From NCBI RefSeq assembly GCF_000715075.1, contig NC_134082.1:102774399-102838398 (forward strand): DNA of 64,000 nucleotides, written 5' to 3'. A model generated the notes under the pieces. That model was not told the origin of the DNA. It worked only from the letters and a program-made list of their open reading frames with translations, and did not search any database. Below, piece after piece: positions 6,423-44,529 of the stretch. The position numbers were made by a program, and so were the translations under genes. The stretch's first letter is position 1; every line of letters starts with the position of its first letter. This DNA comes from Nicotiana tabacum (taxonomy: Eukaryota; Streptophyta; Magnoliopsida; Solanales; Solanaceae).

Positions 6423-7365
6423 ATGGTTATCAAATGAGAAAGGCTAGAGGCTCGGAGGGGGTTGACTAAGGATAATGGCATTGGTTGGCCATAAAAAGCT
6501 CAAACGAGCCAAAGAAAGCCTACAATCATTTCTCAAACCAAGTAAAACTTATGAATTCACCATGAAGCACATTCGGGGCAAGTTCTAGACCATTCGCATG
6601 GATACTTGGACTAGCAACAAATCATCTCATGCAACTAGACCGTAAAAGAGGATAGAATCGAGAGCCTACAAAAACCACACTCAAGTTTAAAGATCACTAT
6701 GGTCCAATAAACCATTAGATGATTATCAAAGCCAACTCAAGAGTCTCAAATTCACTAACTAGAGCTATTTTCTTTCAAAAACCTTGTTTCAAACTATAAG
6801 CATGCAGTTAAGTGTTTTGGTGCCAAATGAAGCATGAATAACTCTATTTTGAGAATGACTTGATTAGGTCTTTTATTCATTACTACTACTATTATTCTTA
6901 TTACCTAAACATAAAAACGGATTCATTCTCTTAAAAAGGTTGTCACACCATCCATTGTTGGGATGAGTCACTCGGTTCATACAAAAACTACCTTTGGAAA
7001 GAACCGTGACGTTAAAAAAACCAAAGGCTTATTATCTAAAAGCAAAAAAGAAGCTACTAACAAAACAAGAACTAAAGTGAAAAAATAAATAAGATAATAA
7101 CAAAACAAGAACTAAAGTGAAAAAATAAAAAGCTAATGAACAATAACTACTAAAGATAGATAAACTACACATAAGAAAAGGAAGAGAATCATCCAATTAT
7201 TACAGTCCAAACGTATCAAAAATGTGTCAATGCATCCAATAAACTCCACCCCCTCCCCGAATAAAAGTAAGCATTATCTCTATTGTTTAACAAATAAAAG
7301 TGCAAAAAGAGAGGGTGAAGAAAACTCTCTAAGGATCCTTGGATATCCTAGTGTCCCCAGCAATA
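6423..7365 (-). other. Athila 3' internal tail without coding sequence
   Basis: No open frame of note is present. On the minus strand this is the stretch between ORF3 and the missing 3' LTR. It contains a direct tandem duplication: TAACAAAACAAGAACTAAAG occurs at about 7058 and again 40 bp later. A polypurine run GGGGAGGGGGTGGAG (minus strand, about 7246-7260) would fit a polypurine tract, but the LTR it should precede is not next to it. Confidence 0.45.
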
Positions 7366-9245
7366 TCATTTCATAGGGTTAGCCAACCGTATCTCATCAT
7401 CATCAAATCTAGGCATAGCGGGAGTGGTGAACATCGCACATACTGCCTCAACAGTGTCAACAGTAAGGTCTGGCTCCTCAGACTGGCCAGCTGGTGCAAC
7501 CGGTGTAGATAGTGATGATGGATATGGGATGGACTGGTCTAGGTCAAGTAGCATGTCAAAAGGTAGATCCCCAGCCATCACAAGTCTGGTCACCTCCTTC
7601 CGGAGCTTGTCAACTGATTTCTTGCTTGCCTAAGACTTCCTCATCTTCTTTTTACTTCTTTGCCCAAATCCTCAATAATCGACTCATGTTGTACCAGAGT
7701 GTCTATGATCATCTTCTGATTGTCCAGAATCTTCTTCAATTTCTCATCAAGATCAGAGGAGACTTGTGGTTCCTATGTAGATGATTGTGCTACAATAGTA
7801 CTAGATAAGCCAGAAAGCTTTGAAATAGTTGTCTGCATCCAATTGTTGAGGCTCGCCAATGTCTGTGAGACTCGGAGAGCAGATAATGGAGTTGTACGCA
7901 TGTGCACTAGCCTCAGAGATGGAGCAGGGGATGCCTTGGGGGTTGTGGTAGGAGTTGAGGATGATGGTGGAGGCATAGCAACAACACTGGAAGAGGGCTC
8001 AATAGAGGTTGATGGAAGGTCAGCTGTCTCAGTAACTACCACTGTCGGCTCATCAGACTGGCCTGTGGTGGCAGAAGGTTGGGCTCTCTTCTTTGGGATG
8101 GTCTCATCCATTAGTGAATATCAGTCAAATGGCTTCTTCGGCTTCACCTTGATGTCAAATAACCTCGGCTCTACCATTACATCAGTGAGGTACTTTGTGA
8201 TAGTGTTGGGATAAGGGTAGGCCGAGCTAGCTTGCTATGCTACCAATAAAATTTTGGCCGACTTCACAGAACTCACATTACTTGGGTACCCATCTATGAT
8301 GGAAGCCACAAAAATAGCCCAAGGAATAGGTATATGAGTCTCATTCTGGCATGGATCAAGCCTGCTGCAAACAATGGTCTTCCGCCCCTTTACCTCGAAG
8401 CTCAATATGTTCTACTGAATGGGGACCCCAACAGTAATCCATGGTGGTGGTGGCCCTGGTGGTTCTAAGAGTTTCAGCCAGCCAAGGTCAGACTTCTTCC
8501 TTCATTGCACATTTCTCCAGATACTCATTTGGCTCCAAGTCCTCAAACCCCAAGTACGCGTTCAACATATGCTGATCATACCTTACCTTGAGGTTGCGTA
8601 CTTTTATCACCTTCATCCCCTTCTTGATGTGAAAAACATTAGCATAGAACTCTTGGATGAGGTACTCCTTGGCATCCTCAACTCTCTCAGTAAACTACAT
8701 CCAACACTTTCTCGCTCTGAACTACCTCAAGATCGTCGGGTTGTATTTATCCAAATCCTTCAATTGGAACTACCTCTCAACTGTCAAATATCTCACTATC
8801 CACCATATATGAAAATCAATGGAGGCAGCCAAGCTGACAAACCTATCCTCCCATATCTCTTTCTTCTTTGATCTCTCCATACCCGTGGATGTACCATCTC
8901 TCCCTCTACCTTCATCGGGGATCTCTTGTAAAGTCTGTGCCTCTGTGGCTGGTGTAGCTGCTGGCTTAGAGATGAAGAGGGCTCATCCCTAAGCTGGTAT
9001 CTCCTATGTGGCCAAGACTGAGTGGTTGTCTGCTCATACTGAATAGACGTTGAGTTTCCCTATGAAATTTCCCTAGATGGGACATAGGAACTAGACTCGG
9101 AGAGGTATACACCTCTCCCTCTGCCTGCTGTGACTTTCTTTCTAATGGTTTTTGGATGGCCAAGGGGCAAGGTACCTCTACCTCGACCCCTAGAAGATTC
9201 ACCTCTTTCCTTTGTAGTGTCACCTCGGCCTTGCGATCGAACCAT
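7366..9245 (-). pseudogene. Athila accessory ORF3 relic ('putative plant transposon protein' type)
   Basis: The start is the ATG at 9245, followed by an Arg/Gly/Ser-rich N-terminus (RGRGDTTKERGESSRGRGRG) and the pattern KKVTAGRGRG. The frame breaks at about 9060. Downstream, fragments in shifting frames include a leucine-rich middle with YLGFEDLEPNEYLEK (about 8520-8565). A Pro/Ser/Thr-rich tail lies at 7773-8111, and an acidic C-terminus ending NPMK lies at 7366-7593. I recognise this as the ORF that follows pol in Solanaceae Athila-type elements, often labelled a putative plant transposon protein. Its function is unknown, and calling it env-like rests on position only. Several stops and frameshifts make it non-functional. 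A splice-acceptor-like GATACAG sits three bases before the ATG, so a 5'-UTR intron is possible. Confidence 0.65.
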
Positions 9246-10500
9246 TGTCTGTATCAAAGCAAAAAAGATTGTTAGTTGCAAGTCATTATTCAACATATTC
9301 AGGACTTATGTAGGTAAGGAAGGAACATGAGGAATCAGTGGGGTTATGATTAAAACATAGGTTTGCAGGTATTTGGTTCTGCGGTACGCATGTTTTTTAT
9401 GTGCGACCACAGAAAGGAACTGCGATACGCAAAATTTGGATGTGCGAATGCAGGAAGTGTGGTCGGCACAATTGCAAGTGCAACCACACTTCAGACTTTC
9501 AAAATTCAGAGGTTCAGGGGCCACTCTGAAGACAGTGCGATGGTCGTTTTGCTGTTGCAACAGAAATATGTGGTCCGCACATTTTAAACTGCGGCTATAA
9601 ATCCCTTGCTTCACTAAGTTGCCTAGATATCCTAATCTGCGGACCACACAAATTCAAGTGTGATCGCAGATTTCAAGCATTAAGTACAGTCACATTTTTT
9701 CTATTTAGATTTTTCAATTTCTTATGCAAAGAGACATGGCAACATGGTAAAAACATGAAATTTCACTAACCCAATCCCACTAGAGCATATATTATGATTA
9801 CCCAATTCAGATCTACCTCACATGGATGAACTCTAATAACAGATAGCCTGAAAAGAAACTAAACAAATTAAACTAACACAAAAATTTAACAGGAATTGAA
9901 GCATACCATATAGAATGAGTGAAATAGGTGAATAATCCCAGGTGGTTGTGTGTGAGGACAATGAAAATCTCTCAAGAAAATCAACAGAGCAACAATGTTT
10001 GTTAAGAGAGTGAAAAGTGTAAAATGACTTTCAAACTTCTATTTATACCAAGAATTTTTAAGAAGGCAAAGAGTCGAGTGCGGTCGCACAATGCCATGTG
10101 CGGTCCACACTCTGTCACCGGGAGCAATTGTCTCTGATCTCATTATGTCGTTTGCACAATTTTGGATGTGGTCGCAGACTTCACATGCGGCCACAGATCA
10201 ACCTCCGCACTGACAAGCTCAAACTTTAGAGAGTTAACTTTTTTACACTTTTTTATTATTTCAATTGTGCGGTCCACATGAGAAATGTGCGGGCGCGATT
10301 TCCTTTCTGTTGTGGCACACATAATTGTGCGGTCCGCACAAATAAAGTGTGGTCCCGTAGATTATTTGGACACCTAGCCATATTTTTGTCCACCTTTAAT
10401 GCAAGTCACACTCATCCCTGTAGCACATTTCAAATCAAGTTAGAACACAAAAAACACCTAACTACAAAATAAAAAGGAAAGAACATGGGTTACCTCCCAA
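9246..10500 (-). promoter_or_regulatory. Candidate internal promoter of Athila ORF3: palindromic GC-rich arrays plus TATA box
   Basis: This stretch between pol and ORF3 has no coding sequence. On the minus strand it shows, in order: a cluster of GTGCGGTCCGCAC-like units (about 10350-10076), a TATA box GGTATAAATAG (10049-10039), a pyrimidine-rich leader, a possible splice donor (about 9911), a second cluster of GCGGNCCGCA-like units (about 9680-9365), and then the ORF3 start at 9245. The same unit type and the same array-then-TATA order occur in this element's own 5' LTR (17620-17197). I infer a second promoter dedicated to ORF3. No expression evidence is available from sequence alone. Confidence 0.45.
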
Positions 10501-10541
10501 GAAGCGCCTGATTTAATGTTGCGGCATGACGCAAAATACCC

Positions 10542-11700
10542 TCAAGTTAAGTGAATGACCGCAACCACATGGCTATCTCCAACCTTGCCCAAGTAGTGCT
10601 TCAACCGGTGACCATTGACTCCGAATACTTTATTGTTTTTGTTCTTCAAGTCTAATGCACCAAAAGGTGTCACATCAACAATTTCAAATGGACCACTCCA
10701 CTTGGATTTTAGCTTCCCGAAAAACATTCTCAACCTTGAGTTAAACAACAATACAAGATTGCCCACCTTGAACTCTTTGTTCCAAATGTATTTGTCAAGA
10801 AGATATTTCATCTTTTCTTTGTACAAGGATGAACTCGCATAAGCATGTTACCGAAACTCATCCAATTCATTCAAATGTGCAACCCTCAAGTTAGCGGCTA
10901 CATCCCAATCAATATTCAACTTCTTTAGAGCCCACATTGCCTTATGCTCTAGTTCCACACTGTGCTCTAGTTCCACCAGAAGATGACAAGCATTTTCGAA
11001 CATCAAACAGTATAGAGACATTCCGATAGGTGTTTTGTAAGCCGTCCGATAATCCCATAATGCATCATCAAGCTTCTTGGACCAATCCGTCTGATTAACA
11101 TTCATCGTTTTAGACAAGATATTCTTTATCTCTCGGTTGAAGACTTCCACTTGCCCATTAGCTTGTGGGTGAGAGGGAGTCGTGACTTTGTGAGTAACAC
11201 CATACTTGCTAAGTAAAGTGTCAAAAGCTTTGTTACAAAAGTGTGGCCCCCCATCGCTTATGATTGCACATGGAGTACCAAACCTTGTGAAAATATTCTT
11301 CTTCAAGAAGGCAACTACATTTCTCGCCTCATTGTTGGGTAAAGCGACGACTTCAACTCATGTGGACACATAATCCACCGCGACCAAGATGTATGTGTTT
11401 CCATAAAAACTCACAAAAGGGACCATGAAGTCAATGCCCCAAATATCAAAAATATCAAACTCCAAGGTGGTTGTGCGAGGTATTTCATTTTCTTTGAGAT
11501 TCCACTGGTCCGTTGACATTCATCACATCTTGTCACCAACTCGCTAGCATCCTTGTAAAGAGTAGGCCAATAGAAACCACAACTAAGCACTTTGGCCGAC
11601 GTTCTTGCTTCACCATGATGACCATCATATGGCAAAGAATAAAAAGCCCCAATAATATCACCTTGCTCTTCGTCCGATACACACCTCATAATCACCCCAT
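10542..11700 (-). pseudogene. Athila integrase domain (broken)
   Basis: Three open pieces (11411-11695, 10848-11306, 10542-10826) together cover zinc finger, catalytic core and C-terminal domain. The zinc finger keeps its second His (DGHHGE) and CDEC. The position where Athila relatives normally have the first His reads FYSLP, so that ligand appears to be Tyr. The core shows the second Asp in ISDGGPHF and the Glu in [11 protein letters not shown]. An 18-bp in-frame tandem duplication (10945-10980) duplicates VELEH. The C-terminal piece has NKVFGVNGHRLKHYLG, typical of Athila integrase tails. Just downstream, a GASWEVT-type end (rc of about 10487-10508) is where these polyproteins usually finish. 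The frames are interrupted, so this copy is dead. Confidence 0.85.
10945..10980. repeat. 18-bp tandem duplication in Athila integrase
   Basis: TGCTCTAGTTCCAC occurs at 10945-10958 and at 10963-10976, period 18. It duplicates VELEH(S) in frame on the minus strand. The period is the same as the duplication at 12729. Confidence 0.88.
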
Positions 11701-11759
11701 CCGTACAAATCTAGTAAAGGTATGGTTCATCCCAATAATAATATTGACAATCCCTTTTG

Positions 11760-13730
11760 GGCTTCTTCCTTTGGCTTGAAGATAACTCATCCGGAATAAT
11801 TCCACACAAAAAAAAAATTGCTAAGTCCGCAAACTATGACACCTATTTCATTGAAATTGCCAAAAGTTGCTCATCGAGGAAGGAGTCATTGATTTCAAGG
11901 CCACCATACGGCCTTCCCTCCTCCTCAAAACAAGACAAGTAGTCTGCCACTTGGTTTTCACTACCTTTCCTATCTTGGATGTCAATATCAAATTCTTGTA
12001 ACAAGAGTACATATCTCATCAATCGAGCTTTGGAGTCCTTTTGCTCATAAGATAGCGAAGCGCTACATGATCCGTATGGACAATAACGTTTGCTCACATC
12101 AAGTACGGGCGAAACTTCTCAATTGCAAATACAATAGCAAGGAGATCTTTATCCGTGACAATATAGTTGACCTTGGCACTATTCACGGTCTTACTAGCAT
12201 AGTAGACCGGATGGAAAATCTTATTGATATGTTGCCCCAAAACATGCCCAACCGCTACATGACATGCATCACACATGAGTTCAAAAGGCACATTCCAATT
12301 TGGAGTGGTGATGATGGGAGTAGTTATCAACTTGAGCTTCAACAATTCAAAATGTCTCATGCAATCATCATTGAAATTGAACTTGGCATACTTCTCAAGA
12401 AGCTTGCACAACGGGTTCACCACTTTAGAGAAATCTTTGATAAAGTGCCGGTAAAAACCTGCATGGCCTAATAAACTCCGCATACCCTTCACCGAAGTTG
12501 GGGGTGGAAGCTTAGAAATCACCTTAATCTTTGCCTTGTCAACTTTAATTCCATTCCTTGAGATTTTATGGCTAAGGATAATACCTTCCTCAGCCATGAA
12601 ATGGCATTTCTCCCAATTGAGTACCAAATTGGGTTCTTCATATCTAGCCAACACTTTGTCAAAATTTGTAAGACAATCATCAAAAGAATTTCCAACCATC
12701 GAGAAGTCATCCATGAAAACTTCAAGGTAGTCCTCCACCATGTTCTAGTCCTCCACCATGTCCGTGAAAATAGCCATCATACACCTTTGAAAAGTCATCG
12801 GTGCATTGCACAAACCAAATGACATCCGCTTGAAAGAAAAAGTACCATAGGGATATGTAAAGGTAATTTTCTCTTGATCTTCTGGAGCAATGAGAATTTG
12901 GTGGTAGCCTGAGTATCCAACAAGAAAATAATAGACAGCACGATCGGCCAATCTATCGAGCATTTGATCTAAGAAAGGAAGTGGAAAGTGATCCTTCCTT
13001 GTTACTTTGTTGAGCTTGTGATAATCCATACACACCCTCCAACTGATCACCGTTCTTGTAGGAATCAATTCATTCTTTTTATTGGTGACCACCATCATTC
13101 CCCCTTCTTTGGGACACATTGAACTGGAGAGGTCCATCAACTATTAGAGATGGGATAGACAACCCCGGTATCCAACCACTTGATAATCTCCTTCTTAATA
13201 ACTTCTTGCATAAACCCATTGAATCTTCTATGATATTCAATAGATAGTTTAGTGCCATCCTCCAACTTGATCTTATGCATGCAAAAGGCGGGGCTTATAA
13301 TATGAATATCTGCCAAGGTTCACCCAATATCCTTCTTCCTCTTTTGTAGCACCGCTTATATGGAATCTACCTGCACATTATTCAAACAAGAGGAAAGAAT
13401 AACCGGTAAAGTAGAACAATGGCGAAAATATTTATACCGAAGATGTGGAGGCAATGGCTTCAACTCCAAGGTAGGTGGCCCTTCAATTGAAGGCTTTGTA
13501 GGAGGAGTCTTCCTATTTTCAAGATCCAAGGACAATTTCGAGGTGCACAGTTTTACGACCCCATTCGTTGCAAAGAGTTCACAGATTCAATGAAGCCATC
13601 TGTCTCATCATCATCAAAGTTGAGCAACGACCTCCAACATATCACCAACATTTATTGTAGCACTTGTATCATAAACAATGACATCGGTCACCAAATTCAC
13701 AAAATAACACACCTCATTACTACTTGGTTG
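11760..13730 (-). pseudogene. Athila reverse transcriptase and RNase H (broken)
   Basis: The RT fingers and palm are at 13140-12745 (CMDYHKLNKVTRKDHFPLP, then SFGLCNAPMTFQ). The catalytic box is FMDD in EVFMDDFSMVG at the start of the 12741-12094 frame. Connection and RNase H follow ([30 protein letters not shown]), then a short frame 12097-11843. An 18-bp tandem duplication (12729-12764) directly before the FMDD box creates an in-frame TAG. Otherwise both halves are in the same frame. Between 13141 and 13730 the link to the protease can be followed only in broken frames. Confidence 0.88.
12729..12764. repeat. 18-bp tandem duplication beside the Athila RT active site
   Basis: AGTCCTCCACCATG occurs at 12729-12742 and again at 12747-12760, period 18. 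On the minus strand the protein reads MVED-stop-N-MVED immediately before YLEVFMDD, so the duplication is in frame but adds a TAG. Confidence 0.9.
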
Positions 13731-14300
13731 CTACATGGACTTACACACATGGAATACCACTTTTTCGTTACCAATCCGAAAAGTGAGTTCTCCGGCTTCA
13801 ACATCACAAAGAGCCTTACCCATAGCAAGGAAAGGTATCCCAAGAATAATTGACACTTCATAATCAACCTCACAATCTAGAATGACAAAATCCGCCGGAA
13901 GAATGAATTTATCAACCCGGACCAAAACATCTTCAATCACACCCAATAACATTTTCATGGTACAATGGCCATTTGCAATCTCATCGAAGTGGGTCTTAGT
14001 TGCCTAATCCCCAAAGTCTTGAAAACCGAATATGGCATCAAATTTATACTTGCCCCAAGATCACAAAGAGCTTTAGCAAACTCAACACTTCTAATTGTAC
14101 AAGGAATCGTGAAAGAATTGGGATCCTCCACCTAGGAGCCATTGAATGAACAATTGCACTTACTTGATAAGTGACTTTGATAGTCTCAAAATTCATTGAC
14201 CACTTCTTTGTCACAAGATCTTTCATAAACTTTGCATAACCAGGCATTTGTTCCAAAGCTTCAACCAATGGCACATTGATTGAGAGACTCTTCATTATTT
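13731..14300 (-). pseudogene. Athila aspartic protease region (broken)
   Basis: The protease active-site triad lies at 14054-14062 (Asp-Leu-Gly in [11 protein letters not shown]). It is followed in another frame by the flap-side segment VIEDVLVRVDKFILP and ILGIPFLAMGKAL (13731-13958). The upstream segment MPGYAKFMKDLVTKK (14295-14044) is the usual end of gag and start of protease in Athila elements. At least two frame changes separate these parts. Confidence 0.8.
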
Positions 14301-14352
14301 GAATGAACTTATTGAATTGATTATCACCATTTTGCTTGGAAAGTCTTTAAGG

Positions 14353-16160
14353 TTATGGAGGTGGAGGCTTAGGCAATGGTGCCTTTGCCTTTTGCACTAC
14401 TGGCTCCGGTATGTCAATGATGTGTTCTCTAGATGAGTTCACCTCCTCTTGAGTCTCTTCTAAACTATCATCATTGTCAATCCGAACTTCCTCATTTGGT
14501 TGAACAACATTGTTTGGGATCTCCTTTTCTTGCATTACTTGATCATCATCAACAAGTCACCTTCCACTTGAGGTGGGTAGATTCCCGCCTCTTTCACTTC
14601 TCATGATAACCGCCATGGCATGCCCCGTATTGTTACCACCCTTTGAAATTACCACCGTGTCACATGGTAGTACACCCTTAGGACGAGTATTTAGAGCTTG
14701 AGAGATTTACCCCATTTGAACTTCTAGGTTGCAAATTGATGTGTTGTGTGAGGCAAGTTGGACATCCGAATCGGCATTCTTTTCCATCATTTGCTTTAAC
14801 ATATTCTCAATACGTCCTATCTCATTATTTGAAGAACTTGAACCATGGGAAGGATAAGGAGGTGGTTTGCTCGGTTGTTGATACATTGGGGGCCTTTGAA
14901 AAACCCGACCCCCGGTTGCCTTGAGTGTTACCCACTTGGTTGTTGCCTCCCCAATTTCCTTAGTTGTTACCACTCCAATTTCCTTGATTGTTGTTGTTAT
15001 GCTAATTCCCTTGATTGTTAGAATTCCAATTGACATGATTGTTTTGTGGTTGTCATTATTGTTGATTTGGGCCTTGGAAGTCATTTCTTTGCCCTTGAAA
15101 ATTGTTCACATATTGCACTTATTCCTCTTGCTCATTGTAAGAATCATCTTGATCAAAACCACTATCATCTTGTACATAGTTCTCCACTTGGGTTTGCACT
15201 TGTGGACCCTTGGTCCTTCTCTTTTTCACCAAAACATTCACTCCCTCCGTAGCATGAACTTGCTTAGGAGCTTGTACTTGATTTAGTTGGGCCTTTTCTA
15301 GTTGAGTCATTGTAGTGGTCAATTCGGCAATGTCTTTCCCATGGTCTTGCAATTCTTTGTGAAGGTGCATCATATTAGGGTCACCTTGTGGAACATTGGC
15401 CCGAGATTGCCAAGCCGATGACATTTTCGCCATCTCATCCAAGATTTCACACACCTCCGCATAAGGCGTAGTCATAAAGTTCCCATCGGCTAGTTGATTC
15501 ACTACATATTGGTTGTTTGTTTTAATCCCACGATAAAAGGTTTGTTGAATCATGTTTTCCTTCATATCATTGTTGGGACATTACTTAACTAGTGTTCTAT
15601 AGTGCTCCCATATTTCGTGTAATGGCTCATTTAGCTCTTGCTTGAATGTCAAGATCTCATCTCGAAGTGTATCCATGTGTCCGGGAGAGAAAAATACAGC
15701 AATGAACTTGGGCGCCAACTCATACCAAGTGTGAATTGAATGATTCGACAATCGTGTCAACCAATCTAATGCTTTCCCTCGTAGCCTCAATGCATCCTCG
15801 GAAACATTAGTTTGTTTGCTCCCCAAACATGTATCCACAAAGCCATTCAAATGTTTATATGCATTTTGAGTTGAAGCACCGGTAAAGAAACCCCATTTCT
15901 CAAGCAAAGTGAGCATCACATTGCTAATTTGGAAGTTGCCCGCCCTAAAATGGGGAGGGACTATTGCACTAGCATAACCTTCATTAGGAAATATCATGTG
16001 TGGAGTCGCACGTGGTAGAGGTGAGGGTGGAACGGGCATGTTTTTCATGTGGTATCTTGCCTCTCCGATTGGCTTGAGGTTCAATAAGTAACTCGTCTAC
16101 TTGTTCCTCCTCGTCGTCCAATTCCCCCAAAGGCAAATTTCTGAGCTCATTATTTTCCAT
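14353..16160 (-). pseudogene. Athila gag (broken)
   Basis: The likely start is the ATG at 16160 (MENNELRNLPLGELDDEEEQ), about 100 bp after the PBS. A frameshift near 16085 separates this from the main capsid frame (16084-15581), which carries HFRAGNFQISN and FFSPGHMDTLRDEI. The frame continues at 15565-15119 (YRGIKTNNQYVVNQLADGNF) and 15084-14707. The last piece is Asn-rich and has FQRPPMYQQP and the coiled-coil-like IENMLKQMMEKNADSDVQL. A Pro-rich, acidic end lies at 14535-14353. Gag forms the particle in this family. This copy has at least four frame breaks. Confidence 0.85.
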
Positions 16161-16255: not shown

Positions 16256-16272
16256 ACTCCCCGGCAACGGTT
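16256..16272 (-). other. Primer-binding site of the Athila element (tRNA-Asp-like)
   Basis: The minus strand reads CCGTTGCCGGGGAGT next to the end of the 5' LTR. This matches the inner part of the tRNA-Asp type PBS (TGGCGCCGTTGCCGGGGA) used by Athila elements. The first bases are changed (TTTTAA in place of TGGCG), so the site is partly decayed. Confidence 0.7.
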
Positions 16273-16278
16273 AAAATT

Positions 16279-17806
16279 GATCCACGTCCAATCCGCACTC
16301 AATAGTGAGTGGAAACGGTCGTTGGAAGAATCGTACCCAACAAGAGTCAGGGTCGATTTCCAAAGAGAGTTTAATACGAGTGTTAGAGTGCACTTGATGA
16401 GAGTAAATGAAATAACTCAACTGCGCTTCCAAACAAGGGATTTTGTTTTCTACTTCTAAATTAACACTAACAATTATAAACTAATGAGAAGAAACTATAA
16501 AGCAAGTAATTATTTTTGTTGTTTTTATCAAATGGGTAAAAGGCCTAGGGATATGACCTTCACCTAGATGTTCGCTTAATGGGTTAAGTACGTTAACACT
16601 TGTTTTATTGATCGGGGTGTATTATAGCTCTCAACTCTAAGTTACTCACTCAATACCTCTCGGTCATAGAGTGATTTTACCCAATTTGACTTTCTCAAGC
16701 CCAAATGGGTATCAAGCTAAATAGTTGATATGAGCTCAAGTCGGGTTCTCCCTATCTCTAGTTCAAACCCTTTAATTAGGCAAGTCAAATCCTCAACTAG
16801 CCCAATTTCTTGTTAGTTAAGTTTTCCTAGACTAGGTCCCTCTTTCTCAAGTAAAGACCAAGTTAAAAAGGCATGAATCAATATTTGCAACCTTTAATTA
16901 TAAAATTAAAGTATGAACAAGTCTAAATAACAAACACTCAATCGTAAAAAAGCACTAAATTAAATACCCATAAGGTTTACACACTAGGGTTGGGTCATAA
17001 CCCTAGTAAATATCTAGCTACTCATAGTAGAAAATGAAGAAAATAAAGAAGAAATACTAATTAAACTCATAATATAAAATTAAAATGATAAACTATGATA
17101 TTTTTATCCCAAAATGATCACAAATTTCCTAAAATGGAAAACTACAACAGCTACACCTGCTAGAACTTCAAAACTTGACCCTAAATTGTGATTCATGTTT
17201 ATTTATAGTGGCTCAAAATTCACTAACAAAATTCCCCTAGGGAGGTTCCGCGACCGCACAATTTCATGTGCGGTCCGCACATTGCTTGAGTTTGTAGGGG
17301 ACTGGATTCTACAGCGACAAAATTTGGTCTATGATTGCGATTTAGCTTCTGCGGCAGCCTGTGGCCGCATAATTTATGTGCGGTCCGCACTTTAGGCAAG
17401 GTCTTAGTCTTGGTCATTTGTACACTCTCTGAATTTTTTGAATTCTTGTCAGTGCTGACCATGTTCTGCGGCCGCACAAATTGTGTGTGATCCGCACTTC
17501 TGCTTCAAGTACTACTAGGCTTCTTTATCCATTTTTCCGCTGCAGAGAGAATTCTGCGGCCCGCACTTGCTTCTGTAGCCATAGAAATACTTCTACGGAT
17601 CGCACTTCTAGTATGTTGCGACCATTCTTCCCTTGTGAGATTGAACACTCCTTTTAGTTGGATTTCTTCATTTTAGCTCAAATCTCCAACATCCCTACAA
17701 TTTTCACACTTTCATTAGTTTTGAGAATATAAATTAATACTTTCGGATTAAAATAAAAGTAAAAAGGTACTAATAAGTGGCCAAAATCCGCACTTATAAA
17801 CTGCCC
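16279..17806 (-). mobile_element. Athila 5' LTR
   Basis: This non-coding stretch lies between the PBS and the interrupted Tekay integrase. The minus-strand start is near 17806 (TTATAAGTGCGGATTTTGGCC, probably from a TGATAAGTGCGG start). The end is near 16279, so the length is about 1.5 kb. It carries a TATA box (17197-17207) preceded by a palindrome array. The outer boundary is approximate because I could not identify a matching 3' LTR. Confidence 0.65.
17197..17620 (-). promoter_or_regulatory. Athila LTR promoter: TATA box with upstream GCGGTCCGC palindrome array
   Basis: The minus strand shows TATAAATAAAC at 17207-17197. Directly upstream (17240-17620) are repeated GC-rich inverted units such as GCGACCGCAC, TGTGCGGTCCGCAC and GCGGCCGCAC, spaced irregularly 30-90 bp apart. 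The surrounding LTR is AT-rich, so the block stands out. Transcription would start near 17165. Confidence 0.6.
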
Positions 17807-30826: not shown

Positions 30827-33678
30827 TGTCACGACCCTAAAATGGACCCGGTTGTGATGGAGCCTATCGTGAAACTAGGCCAGCCGATACAAATCGCAAA
30901 CCAACCAAAACAATTATAATAAGTCATTAATAAGCCGAAAATCCCAAAATATAAGGTAGAATATAACAGTGCGAAAATAAACACAGCCCGACATCGGGGT
31001 GTCACCAGTCATGAGTATCTACGACTCGTCTAAGAATAAAAAAGACAATATAGTCTGATACAAAGCTAGTACAAAGTGAAATAAAGATAGGAAGGAGAAA
31101 CACTGGGCTGCGAACGCCGAGCAGCTACCTAGTCAACTCCGAACAAGTCTGGTGGAAGGCAAATCAGCACTCGTTAGAGTGACCTGAGACTCCTGGATCT
31201 GCACATAGGGTGCAGAGAGTAATGTGTGTACGCCAATTCAGTAAGTAATAAAAGTAAAGGTAGTTGAGCGATAAGAAAACACGTAAAAACACAGCATAAT
31301 GCTACAACAAAATAGTATAAATCCAAAACAATGCAGTAGTACAGTAAAAGCTCGTAAAAATATTTTAGTTTAGTAAAAACCTCTTTAAAACATCTTTCAG
31401 TAGTTCAAACAAGTGATGAAAACAAGAAGAAAAAGGATAGAAGCATAAATCAGCCCCTCGGGCAAAATACCAATAGAACCAGCCCCCTCGGGCTACCTCA
31501 CAATCACTTGTATCAGCCCCTCAGGCAATAACATGAAACAACAATAGCCCTCGGGCAATATCGTATCTCACACTGGGTACCTGCGCTCACTAGAGGTGTA
31601 CAGACTCCTGGAGGGGCTCCTACAGCCCAAGCGTAATAACAAGACATCTTGTGGCATAATCATAACAAGCCACCTCATGGCACAACAAAATCAGGTCCTC
31701 GGCCTCATAATCATGAATCAGTACACACTGTTGCGACACACAGCCGATCACATAATATCCTCACAACTTAGGCCCCCGGCCTCACTCAGTCAGAAATATC
31801 TCAAGCCACTCGGGCAATAGTAAAACATGATGTTCAGCCCAAAATATCATTTAAAATGTCAAAACGGAGTAAATATGGCTGAGTTATGAAAACAATAAAA
31901 TACAGCATGACTGAGTACAAATATGAAGTCAAAATAGTGAGGAATAGTAGTAAAAATCCCCTAAGGGTCTAAAGCAGTTGGCACAAGGCCCAAATATGGC
32001 GTTCAACCCAAAACATGATAATACTTTTCAAAACACTATGATAGCAAACAGTTTTCAATCAAATAAGTCGTTAACAGTCATACAATACAGACTAAGTCAC
32101 AATCCCCAACAGTGCACGACCCCACACTCGTCATCTAGCGTGTGCTTTACCTCAAAGTATCACAACGATGTGAAATTCAGGGTTTCATACACTCAGGACA
32201 ACATTTACAATCATTACATACCTCTATCCGGTCCAAACTCTAGCCCGCGATGCCTTTGTCTCTCGAATCGGCCTCCGGATGCTCCAAATCTAACCAAAAA
32301 TAGATTTATACTATCAAAATATTCTAAGGGAACAAAGCCCACTTGAAAATTATCAATTTACAACAAAATTCCGAAATTGGCCAAACCCGACCCTCGAGCC
32401 CACATCTCGGATTCCAATAAAATTGACAAAACTAGAATTCTTACACTCTCACGAGTTCATACATATCAAGAATACCAAAATCTGACCACAAATGACCCTT
32501 CAAATCCCTAGATTAAGGTCTCCAATTTTCAAGCCCTAAACCCCCAATTTTTGCTACTAATTTCCATAGACTTCAAGCTCAATCAGTCAAAAACCATCCT
32601 AGAAACAAGTTCAGGGTTCAAAAACCTTACCTCCACGAAATCCCCTTGAATTTACTCTTCAATTTGTTCTCCAAAGCTTTCTCCTAAATGAAATATGGTG
32701 AAAAACCACTCAAAATCGTGAAGGGCCAAATATATATGTTCTGCCCCAGCTAAACCACTTCTACGGTACAAAACATCGCACCTGCGGTCCCAGGTGCGCA
32801 TCTGCACAAATCACTTAAGCACCCCAGACCGCACCTGCGATCAAACTCCCGCACCTGCGCTATCGTAGGTGCTCTCAATCTTCCGCATATGCGGTTCCAG
32901 CGCCTCTTTCCCATTTCTGCATCTGCAACTCATATTGCGCTTCTGTGGGCCCGCACCTGCGGTCTCCAAGCCACAAGTGCGGTTATGACAAGAGTTCCAG
33001 CATTTCAGCTCCAAATTCCAACTCCAAACCTCCCGCCAACCATCCGAAATCACCCCGAGGCCTCTGGGACCCCAACCAAAAGCACAAACATGTCATATAC
33101 CACTATCCAAACTTATACCAATCTTCGAAACACCTAAAACAACATCGAATCAACCAAATGACATCGGATTCAAGCCTAAGGTTCCAAAATTTTCCGAGTT
33201 CCGCTTTTGATCAAAAAGTCTATCAAACCTCGTCTGAATGACCAAAAATTTTGCATACACATCACAAATGACACAACAGACCTACTCCGACTTTACGAAT
33301 TCCATTCTGACCCCTATATCAAAATCTCACCCATCAACCGACAAAAGCCAAAATTCCAATTTCGCCAATTCAAGCCTAAATCTACTCCGGACCTCCAAAA
33401 CCCATTCTGATCACGCTCTTAAGTCCCAAATCACCTCCTGAAGCTATCCGAACCATCTAAATTCACATTCGAGCCCTTTTTCACAAAAGTCAACATCCGG
33501 TTGACTTTTCCAACTTAAGCTTACTCAAAAGAGACTAAGTGTATCATTCCTTTCCAAAACCTCTCCAAACTCGAACCAACCAACCCGATAATACATAATA
33601 CAGCTTAACAAGACAATAAGAAGCAGAAATGGGGGAAACAGAGCGGTAACTCAGGAAAAGACCGGCCGGATCATTACA
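30827..33678 (-). mobile_element. Solo chromovirus LTR (copy D1), minus orientation
   Basis: On plus it reads TGTCACGACCC...GGATCATTACA, that is TGTAATGATCC...GGGTCGTGACA on minus; 2852 bp. The flanks are TTCTT (30822-30826) and TTCTC (33679-33683), a 4/5 target duplication. It has no internal domain. It carries 'cagcccctcgggcaa'-type short repeats at 31440-31810 and a CGCACCTGCGG array next to a TATA box. Confidence 0.85.
32730..32965 (-). promoter_or_regulatory. Promoter of solo LTR D1: TATA box with upstream GCACCTGCGG array
   Basis: A TATATA motif at 32737-32730 (minus strand) lies directly downstream of about ten CGCACCTGCGG / CCGCATATGCGG-like inverted units at 32762-32965. Confidence 0.6.
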
Positions 33679-33782: not shown

Positions 33783-36529
33783 TGTGACGACCCAGCCAGT
33801 CATCTCATGAATTACCGCTCCGTTTCCCCCATTTTTGCTTCTTTATGCTTCATTATCCGTGTTTTATGGTATTGGGTTGGTCGGATCGAGTCCGGAATAA
33901 TTTTGGTAAGGTTTGAGACACTTAGTCTCTTTTAAGGAAGTTTAAGTTGGAAAAGTCAACCGGATGTTGACTTATGTGTTAGAGAGCTCGGATGTGAGTT
34001 CTGATGGTTCGGTTAGCTTCGGGAGGTGATTTATGGCTTAAGAGTGTGATCAGAATGGGTTTTGGAGGGTTGGAGTAGTTTTAGGCATGAATTGGCGAAG
34101 TTGATATTTTGGCGATTTCCGGTTGGTAGGCGAGATTTTGATATAGGGGTCGGAATAGAATTCCGAGAGTTGCATTAGCTCCGTTGTGTCATTTTGGATG
34201 TGTATGTAAAATTTCAGGTCATTCGGACATGGTTTGGTTGGGTTTTTGATCGAAAGCGTATTTCGGAAAATTTTAGAAACTTAGGCTTGAATCCGATGTG
34301 ATTTGGTAGATTTGATGTTGTTTGAGGCATTTTGATGATTGGAACAAGTTTGAATAAGGTATTGGGTTATGTTTGTGCTTTTGGTTGAGGTCCCGGAGGC
34401 TTCGAGATGATTTCGAGTGGTTAACGGAGAAGTTGGAATTTTGTTGCAGCAGTTGAATTTACTGCTTCTGGTATTTTCGCACCTGCGGATCACGTGCGGG
34501 TGATCTATCGCAAAAGCGAAAAAGGGCTAGATGAGCAGAGACCGCAGAAGCGGTATGGGGACCGCATCTGCAATGTTGCAAATATGGAAGTTGGGTCGCA
34601 GATGCGATGTAGGCTAGGTAAGCGAATTCCGCAGAAACGGAGGATTTGACCGCACATGCGGTACCGCAGAAGCGGGTTTTGGACTGCAGATGCGGAAAAG
34701 CCTGGGCAGATCATATAAGTTATTTCATTCCGCGAGATTTAGCTATTTCACCATTTTTTACTTCGGCTTGGGAGCTTCTTGGGCGATTTGAGAGGGGGAT
34801 TTCAAGAGAACTTCATTGAGGTAAGGAATTTGGACCTAAAACTTGTTCTTATGCTATTAATTCATGGATTAGGGCTAGAAATTATGGAAATCAAAGACTA
34901 AAATTGGGGAAACTAGGGCTTGAGAACTTAGGCCTTTAATTATGGATTTGAAGGACCATTTGGGGTCGGATTTGCGAACTTTTGATATGTATGAATTCAT
35001 GGGGAGATAAGGAATCTATTTATGTAAAAATTTCTGAATTCCGAAATATGGGCCCGGGAGTCGGATTTTGGTAATTTCAGGATTTGTTCCCTTTATTGAT
35101 TGTTTTTGCTTGGGCTTCATTCCCTTAGCATATTTTGACGTTCCCGTTTTGATTTTGGATAGATTCGACGCGAGTGGAGGCCGATTCGAGGGGCAAAGGT
35201 ATCGCGAGCTAGAGATTTGACCAGTTTAAGGTGGTTAATGATTGTAAATGATGCTCTGAGGGTATGAAACCCCGGATTTCACATCGTTGTGCTATATTGA
35301 AGTGACACGCACGCTAGATGACGAGCGTGGGGTCGTGCACTATTGGGGGATTGTGACTTAGTCCGTCCCGAATGACTATTTTACCGCGTATTTGACTGAA
35401 AACTATTTGTTATCATCATTATTTGAGCTGAATGCCATATTTGGGCTGAATGACAACTATTTGAACCCTTAGGGACTTTTATTGCTATTTCCTCACTGTT
35501 TTGACTTTATACCTGAACTCAGTCATATTATATTTCACTATTTTCGTACTCAGCCATGTTTACTATGTTTTAACACTTAAATGATCTTTTAAGTGATATT
35601 TTGGGCTAAGAACCATGTTTTACTATTGCCCGAGGGGGCTGGTGAGGATTTTGACTGAGTAAGGCCGAAGGCCTATGTTGTGAGGATTTGACACTGATTA
35701 TGAGGCTAAGGGCCTGAGATATTTATGCCACGAGGTGGCTTGACTGATATGAGTCTGAGGGCCTAGTTTGATGCCACGAGATAGATTGATATTGCACTTG
35801 GGCCGTAAGGGGCCCCTCCAGAAGCCTGCACGCCCCCAGTGAGCGTGAGTACCCATTGTGATATGACATTGAGCCCGAGGGGATGGTATTGTTCTGAGAT
35901 GTTGCCCGAGGGGCGAACTTCTAATTGTTTACTTTGCCTTAACTGCCTGTCAATTACCTGTTTACTTGTTGAAAAAGGATTGTTACTTAACTTTTCACTG
36001 GTTTACTGCTTTTAAATGGTTTTACTACTTCATTATAGAATGTCTTGTGCCTTACGTGTTTTCTTACTTTCAGTCGTTATTTACATTTGTTACTCACTGA
36101 GTTGGATTACTCACTTTACTCCCTGCACCCCGTGTGCAGATTCAGGCGTAGCTGGTCCCACTCCCGAGTGCTGATTCATTCCAGCTTCAGGCGGATCTCG
36201 AGGAGTCTTTAGGTAGTTGTTGGCGTTTGCAGCCCAAAGCTTCTCCCTATTTATCTCTTTTATGTTCTTAGTTCAGTATTTAAAACTCTGTAGTTACATT
36301 TGAGGATTCAGTATTGTTAGATGCTCGTGACTTGTGACACCCCGGTTAGGGCTGTGTTGGGTTGTACTTTCGCATTTTTATCGATATTATCTTCTACTTC
36401 GTATTATTAATCATGTCTTAGACTGTTTTACTGTTGTTTTAACTGTTTAACGTCGAATTGGGAATAGTTGGCTGGACTTGTCTTCATGAGAGGCGCCATC
36501 ACGACCGGGTCCGGGTTAGGGTCGTGACA
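33783..36529 (+). mobile_element. Solo chromovirus LTR (copy D2), plus orientation
   Basis: It runs TGTGACGACCC...GGGTCGTGACA; 2747 bp. The flanks are CAAAT (33778-33782) and CAAAC (36530-36534), a 4/5 target duplication. It is an inverted relative of D1, with matching blocks in mirror order (for example CCGCTCCGTTTCCCCCAT near each outer start). The short repeats TTGCCCGAGGGG and 'gccgaaggcc' lie at 35620-35920. Confidence 0.85.
34476..34719 (+). promoter_or_regulatory. Promoter of solo LTR D2: GCAGATGCGG array upstream of a TATA box
   Basis: About ten units such as CCGCAGAAGCGG, GCAGATGCG and CGCACATGCGG occur in 220 bp, followed at 34712-34719 by CATATAAG. The position within the LTR (about 690-920 bp from its start) is the same as in D1. 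Confidence 0.6.

Positions 36530-43377: not shown

Positions 43378-44529
<1,152 letters not shown>

Follow-up and report, generated by a model that had tools for sequence, protein, structure and literature searches.

The window, a 64,000-nucleotide stretch of the Nicotiana tabacum genome, carries on its minus strand an Athila-type retrotransposon whose pol gene is followed by an env-like accessory reading frame, ORF3. Five of nine gag-pol pieces scanned with Pfam scored above the curated cut-off for retroelement domains, and the matches follow the Ty3/gypsy order gag-RT-RNaseH-INT on the minus strand. The main parts of the element are:

16276..17793, minus strand: 5′ long terminal repeat (LTR) of the Athila-type element, inside another Ty3/gypsy pol
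17254..17605, minus strand: LTR half-site array
17200..17207, minus strand: LTR TATA box TATAAATA, in a context similar to that in LTRs of 9 relatives
10545..16096, minus strand: gag-pol, in broken pieces (Retrotrans_gag, RVT_1, RT RNase H and integrase in Pfam)
10541-9246, minus strand: linker between pol and ORF3
10486..10509, minus strand: pol-end anchor sequence, with 2150 exact genome matches over both strands
7369..9245, minus strand: ORF3 region (env-like accessory ORF), open pieces only, with its ATG at 9245

The two LTR edges were placed differently. An LTR matching that of the window was found in 13 of 20 stretches downstream of related copies (those of the promoter query described below), and most of their aligned pieces (72-90% per aligned piece) stop at about 16276; the edge at 17793 was taken from reading the sequence. 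By eye, the Athila LTR starts at 17793 within the integrase region of another Ty3/gypsy element, as in a nested insertion. Near 16262, after the long LTR, CCGTTGCCGGGGA is a degenerate candidate primer binding site, read by eye, which may be of the tRNA-Asp type. At the other end the element runs about 0.9 kb past ORF3 and foreign sequence begins near 6430; no 3′ LTR of this element and no LTR pair was found within the window. ORF3 itself is broken, and the window copy is a decayed relic. Elsewhere in the window, Tandem Repeats Finder reports a minisatellite of CCGGCATAACCCGAGGACC-like units at 319-1101, and long AT and TG dinucleotide runs occupy 43381-43503.

The identity of ORF3 was approached through its relatives in the genome (a 3,996,098,646-base assembly of 700 contigs). 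None of five window ORF3 pieces gave a retroelement Pfam match; the first of these is not in the frame of the ATG at 9245, whose own segment, 9245-9063, lies outside the set. One piece matches the ORF3 of a related locus, L006, at E 1e-6, and that of another, L002, at E 0.002. The L006 stretch in turn matches PF20167, presumably a marker of Athila ORF3, at E 1.9e-9, under the curated cut-off, and two homologues of it match at E 4.7e-28 and 6.2e-29, over the cut-off. By this indirect route, through L006, the element would carry a sense ORF3 of the PF20167-bearing, env-like family between pol and the 3′ LTR. ORF3 homologues with a named source come from Nicotiana tabacum and N. sylvestris. Among viral contigs, searches with two window proteins and one RT alignment yielded no confirmed relatives (0, 1 and 78 pattern stretches, not one of them upheld by tblastn), and a DNA-pattern match on one such contig (L001), GC-rich with many overlapping ORFs, was taken as chance.

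An earlier note on this DNA had described, between pol and ORF3, two clusters of repeated units, a TATA box at 10049-10039, a leader, a possible donor at about 9911 and an acceptor-like GATACAG just ahead of the ORF3 ATG, and had pointed to the same kind of array directly above the TATA box of the LTR. Direct reading agrees in nearly every particular: the clusters lie at about 10353-10079 and 9670-9379, the TATA stretch of the window copy reads GGTATAAATAG at 10049-10039, GATACAG precedes the ATG at 9245, and the LTR array stands directly above its TATA (17207). The leader and the donor GT also exist, with the GT at 9906-9905 rather than about 9911. In order of transcription, the parts of the linker are:

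10079..10353, minus strand: internal array 1, above the internal TATA
10040..10047, minus strand: internal TATA box TATAAATA, exact in 26 of 30 copies
10018..10019, minus strand: CA dinucleotide as candidate cap site, placed 29 bp below the TATA; kept in 29 of 30 copies
9907..10018, minus strand: putative first exon (leader); TATA-donor distance 138-143 bp across 30 copies
9905..9906, minus strand: candidate 5′ splice site GT (GGTATG); GT in 29 of 30 copies
9379..9670, minus strand: internal array 2, within the putative 5′ UTR intron
9271..9275, minus strand: branch-point-like CTAAC; CTAAC or CTAAT there in 20 of 30 copies
9249..9250, minus strand: AG dinucleotide as candidate 3′ splice site, 3 bases ahead of the ATG; of 30 copies, 27 have the A and 15 the G, counted by column

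The arrays stand out clearly from the surrounding DNA. With up to three mismatches allowed, GTGCGGTCCGCAC has 24 matches in the window against 2.5 expected, a number reached by 0 of 100 shuffles; since near-palindromes are counted on both strands, the 24 matches represent 14 distinct places. Twenty-two of the matches fall within 9379-10339 or 17268-17605. It is more accurate to view the units as alternating half-sites (TGCGG/CCGCA in strict form), spaced mostly 19-22 bp and pairing into dyads whose starts are 5 or 6 bases apart. The LTR array reaches 11 strict half-sites per 300 bp and array 1 has 8, against 4 in the best 300 bp among 100 shuffles. Array 2 of the window copy has only 4, which is not above the shuffle maximum and counts against a promoter reading; we identify it as an array from relaxed matches and from the other copies. 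In all three arrays (LTR, array 1 and array 2), half-sites of the same direction are most often 19-22 bp apart; further peaks occur near 40-41 and, in array 1, also at 47 and 59-60. Distances of 20-22 or 40-42 occur in 84 of 100 genome places listed, where 23 would be expected if they were even (the gap was left free from 5 to 30, and many of these places share descent). A repeat of about two helix turns would put the sites on one face of the DNA, as in a protein-binding design. The arrays have an observed-to-expected CpG ratio of 0.98, the leader one of 0.12.

Clusters of TGCGG/CCGCA also occur in other LTR-like sequence of the window, at 34484-34695 (plus strand) and 32783-32982 (minus strand); by eye, each has a TATA-like stretch after it and then a leader that includes a donor-like GAGGTAAGG, and their spacing is unlike that of the Athila arrays.

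Conservation was examined in copies retrieved with a 281-base query around the internal TATA, which returned 40 scored matches out of 740 first-look candidates; 30 of the 40, the window copy included, were studied. Because these copies were fetched by similarity to the promoter block and share descent, counts over them are not independent, and the fair test is the contrast inside the alignment only. Over the 270-base alignment, TATAAATA shares the highest conservation of any 8-mer (0.979, the block averaging 0.889) and is flanked on either side by variable bases; the four copies without the exact box are altered by one or two bases. The last half-site, in its relaxed form, lies 29-35 bp above the TATA in 23 of the 26 copies with the exact box and 50-56 bp above it in the other three. 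As for strict half-sites, each of the 30 copies has 4-12 in the roughly 510 bp above the TATA place, 29 have none in the 288 bp below it and the other has 1, and 29 have at least one (0-14 overall) at about 290-790 bp below, where array 2 lies.

The poorly kept acceptor G (15/30) is the weakest element of the cassette and is counted against the promoter reading. Methylation at CAG, a CHG site, leads to its decay into CAA or TAG, and decay of this type could explain part of the loss. Also on the negative side, 17 of the 30 leaders contain at least one ATG. An alternative short intron, 9906-9848, is possible and has an AG kept in 26 of 30 copies, but it is only 59 nt long and would leave many ATGs, and we do not prefer it. 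An ATG that abuts the donor and would be in frame with ORF3 once spliced was dropped from consideration as private to the window copy (1/30).

Sampling from ORF3 gave a second view of the same region. A query on the ORF3 start returned 40 scored places out of 1164 first-look candidates, and 19 of them, the window included, coincide with promoter-query matches (lists compared by eye); 17 of these 19 were read at the TATA, and 14 carry TATAAATA. Among the other 21 places, 20 were examined upstream, and 14 have the promoter block with TATAAAT. Over the 330 bp above the TATA, eleven of the 14 carry 5-12 strict half-sites and one carries 2; in L095 and L099, where only 71 and 97 bases are seen above the TATA, there are 2 and 0. 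The block is thus present in 33 of 39 ORF3-anchored places examined and missing from six, which are counted against a promoter. At the 37 places either read at the TATA or lacking the block, TATAAAT stands in 28, is changed in three and is missing with the block in six, a tally that leaves out the two list matches not read at the TATA.

ORF3 without the array, which the earlier note had named as the case that would speak against its reading, does occur, and in part it looks like loss. In L082 and L086, ORF3 is present and array sequence is kept, and the TATA and leader are gone, as if a deletion had run from array 1 to array 2; both recall the Athila6A copies without an ENV promoter described in the accessible text of PMC4977677. 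L094 has many half-sites above its alignable part and no TATA, and loss is less clear there than in L082 and L086. L081 and L093 have no linker match, and L090 has short pieces only.

A second family of elements repeats the arrangement with different sequence. Its members (L002, L006 and L008/L009, of which L008 and L009 are one element) have pol 70-72% identical to the window pol, and their promoters give no BLAST match to the window promoter at E 1e-6. Nevertheless they show the same order of pol end, array, TCTATAAATAG, leader, donor-like GGTA and second array, with 136-137 bp from TATA to GGTA. In L002 and L006 the second array is followed by an ORF3 relative, PF20167-related in L006. In L008/L009 the post-ORF3 tail begins about 230 bp after array 2; the promoter cassette is kept and ORF3 absent, which is counted against the promoter reading. 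Since array 2 there leads almost directly into the post-ORF3 tail, a cassette can outlive its ORF, on the evidence of this single element. All the loci of this family were retrieved by way of the exact array module and so are not a sample of all relatives. Arrays with CTATAAATAC/T occur in further sequence as well (L005, L061, L071 and L078), and L005 has a donor-like GGGGTAAGT below its array and TATA.

The LTRs carry the same design. All 13 LTRs matching that of the window have a half-site cluster, and nine have TATAAAT 41-68 bp below the last half-site; in four, TATAAAT is absent within 115 bp, which counts against the reading. Across the genome, the exact palindrome-gap-TATAAATAG pattern has 2513 matches, in any element, and the pattern read backwards has 0. 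We compared, by coordinates alone, the first 100 of these array-TATA matches with the 52 pol-end anchors listed on the same C1 stretch. Within 12 kb of the 52 listed pol ends there are 21 matches on the same strand and 1 on the opposite strand; by offset, six of the 21 cluster near -6.75 kb, four between +0.38 and +0.42 kb and eight between +5.5 and +5.9 kb, and the remaining three fall outside these groups. We read the three groups (18/21) as the probable 5′ LTR, internal promoter and 3′ LTR. An exact internal match at only 4 of the 52 listed pol ends is counted against the promoter reading, with the proviso that the exact pattern is strict and the copies decayed. Among 20 loci chosen by the exact module only, 12 have a TATA 15-80 bp outside the cluster, against a background of 0.035 per search window and strand, and eight lack one by this first criterion (again counted against). 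When the criterion was changed slightly, 13 of the 20 loci had TATAAATA pointing away from the array and 0 had it pointing towards the array, a control that is local to these loci.

The least expected result concerns the likeness between LTR and internal arrays, which is specific to the family. Compared by 9-mers around the core, LTR arrays are closer to the internal arrays of the same family than to those of the other family in 98.7-100% of 300 resamplings. The mean cosines are modest, at 0.14-0.16 for own against 0.09-0.12 for other family in family 1 (12 of the 13 LTRs) and 0.26-0.27 against 0.09-0.10 in family 2 (groups of 5 and 7 loci, six of them assigned by TATA context alone). This pattern fits an exchange of modules within the element as well as co-evolution with a factor specific to the family.

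Given the observed sequence, positions, conservation, phasing and orientation of these parts, we consider it very probable that, in this Nicotiana Athila group, the DNA separating pol from ORF3 serves as an RNA polymerase II promoter, complete with a 5′ UTR intron, and is a second instance of the design used in the LTR. In that design, TGCGG/CCGCA dyads repeating about every two helix turns would form a CpG-dense array, followed by a TATA box, which lies about 30 bp below the last half-site in the internal promoter and 40-70 bp below it in the LTR, and then by a pyrimidine-rich leader. A sequence-specific DNA-binding factor, of the host or of the element, probably occupies the array and activates both promoters. 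Judged by these sequence features, a core promoter appears to lie between pol and the env-like ORF; from it we infer transcription starting near 10018 and splicing from 9906 to 9249, which would remove array 2 together with many upstream ATGs and bring the ATG of ORF3 close to the beginning of exon 2. The predicted outcome is expression of ORF3 apart from gag-pol.

The separate ORF3 promoter reusing an LTR-type array, as the earlier note proposed it, is well supported by comparison, through the intact TATAAATA in 26/30 copies, the block in 33/39 ORF3 places, the same order in a second family, the 18 of 21 nearby matches at LTR or internal offsets and the 13-to-0 orientation; on the other side stand the acceptor G at 15/30, the six of 39 places lacking the block, L008/L009 without ORF3 and the broken ORF3 of the window.

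Other accounts of the region can be set against this one. ORF3 might be expressed by splicing of LTR-initiated RNA, as reported for barley Bagy2, with the array-TATA block being no promoter in practice. Splicing of the Bagy2 env-like ORF is stated in the accessible text of PMC7264820, and the branch-point and acceptor signals lie just ahead of the ORF3 ATG, but this account leaves unexplained both the conserved TATA and CA at promoter spacing and the presence of array plus TATA at LTR and internal positions alike; we regard it as unlikely, and the two routes can coexist. That the arrays are chiefly silencing or boundary sequence (a CpG/CHG-dense methylation target or source of small RNA), or expanding repeats, with the TATA a passenger, we hold to be rather more doubtful. 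The CpG ratio of 0.98 and the half-sites that flank the two apparent deletions in L082 and L086 speak for such a role, whereas the strict TATA orientation (13 to 0), the fixed spacing and the helical phasing fit protein-guided transcription better; the idea is partly compatible with the promoter, because a promoter can be a silencing target too.

Could the arrays act instead as RNA structures, serving as packaging, translation or export signals in genomic RNA? We think this very improbable. Array 1 folds better than its shuffles, weakly (z -2.27, 5/200 as good), but such folding is expected of any palindrome array, the phasing of about 20 bp in DNA would not be demanded by RNA hairpins, and the 5′ LTR array should lie outside the transcript, since it stands above the TATA. 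Least probable of all, and rejected here, is an old LTR or LTR fragment caught inside the element. The array type and TATAAATAG are common to both places, but BLAST of 10 LTR promoters against 30 internal regions gave 135 alignments, of which the 12 longest comprise 11 array pieces (34-63 bp) and one AT-rich piece (37 bp), and by eye the LTR and internal leaders look unrelated.

In kind, such a promoter is not new, because an Athila env promoter is already in print: the accessible text of PMC4977677 names a promoter for the ENV ORF of Arabidopsis Athila6A, whose start sites and intron its authors characterised. The tobacco element shares with Athila6A the Athila lineage and an internal promoter region for an env-like ORF; a palindromic array common to the LTR goes unmentioned in that text (PMC4977677). 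In the literature searched, no description of arrays of this type in Athila was found. For plant env-like ORFs in general, splicing, stop suppression and an internal promoter have been discussed as routes of expression (PMC2829016, accessible text). Grande gene23 is likewise an accessory ORF between pol and the 3′ LTR with its own promoter, but it is antisense, and the accessible text states no array shared with the LTR (PMC7264820).

Foamy viruses offer a functional parallel. As given in the accessible text of PMC3185757, their LTR and internal promoters are run by one activator, Tas, which is encoded behind the internal promoter and binds both; the tobacco element resides in a plant host and its binding factor is only predicted. 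By analogy, one family-specific activator, possibly the ORF3 product, might drive the LTR and internal promoters of the tobacco element, with the arrays co-evolving with it and with early (ORF3) and late (gag-pol) phases or an anti-silencing role; we offer this plant counterpart of the foamy virus circuit as speculation that is probably wrong. The phased dyads predict a binding protein, and RNA data already available, together with a short DNA probe, would allow the expression question to be tested.

The closest match in design lies in the Sireviruses, which have CpG islands and carry palindromes with a CGG-CCG core above the LTR TATA and, among env carriers, also upstream of ENV (77/79 linker copies); the authors did not conclusively identify an internal promoter (PMC2829016, accessible text). 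The tobacco element likewise has CGG-CCG palindromes above its LTR TATA and upstream of its env-like ORF, but Sireviruses are Ty1/copia elements and its pol is Ty3/gypsy-ordered. Beyond the Sirevirus design it has a clear TATA, a candidate cap site and a donor at fixed spacing, along with the 20-bp phasing and the within-family likeness of LTR and internal arrays, which the accessible Sirevirus text does not mention (PMC2829016). With about 2500 exact array-TATA cassettes in the genome, those near listed pol ends sitting mainly at LTRs and just ahead of ORF3, the tobacco elements extend the CGG-CCG design of Sireviruses to an unrelated superfamily, which suggests that the two have converged on a single kind of factor or of chromatin state.
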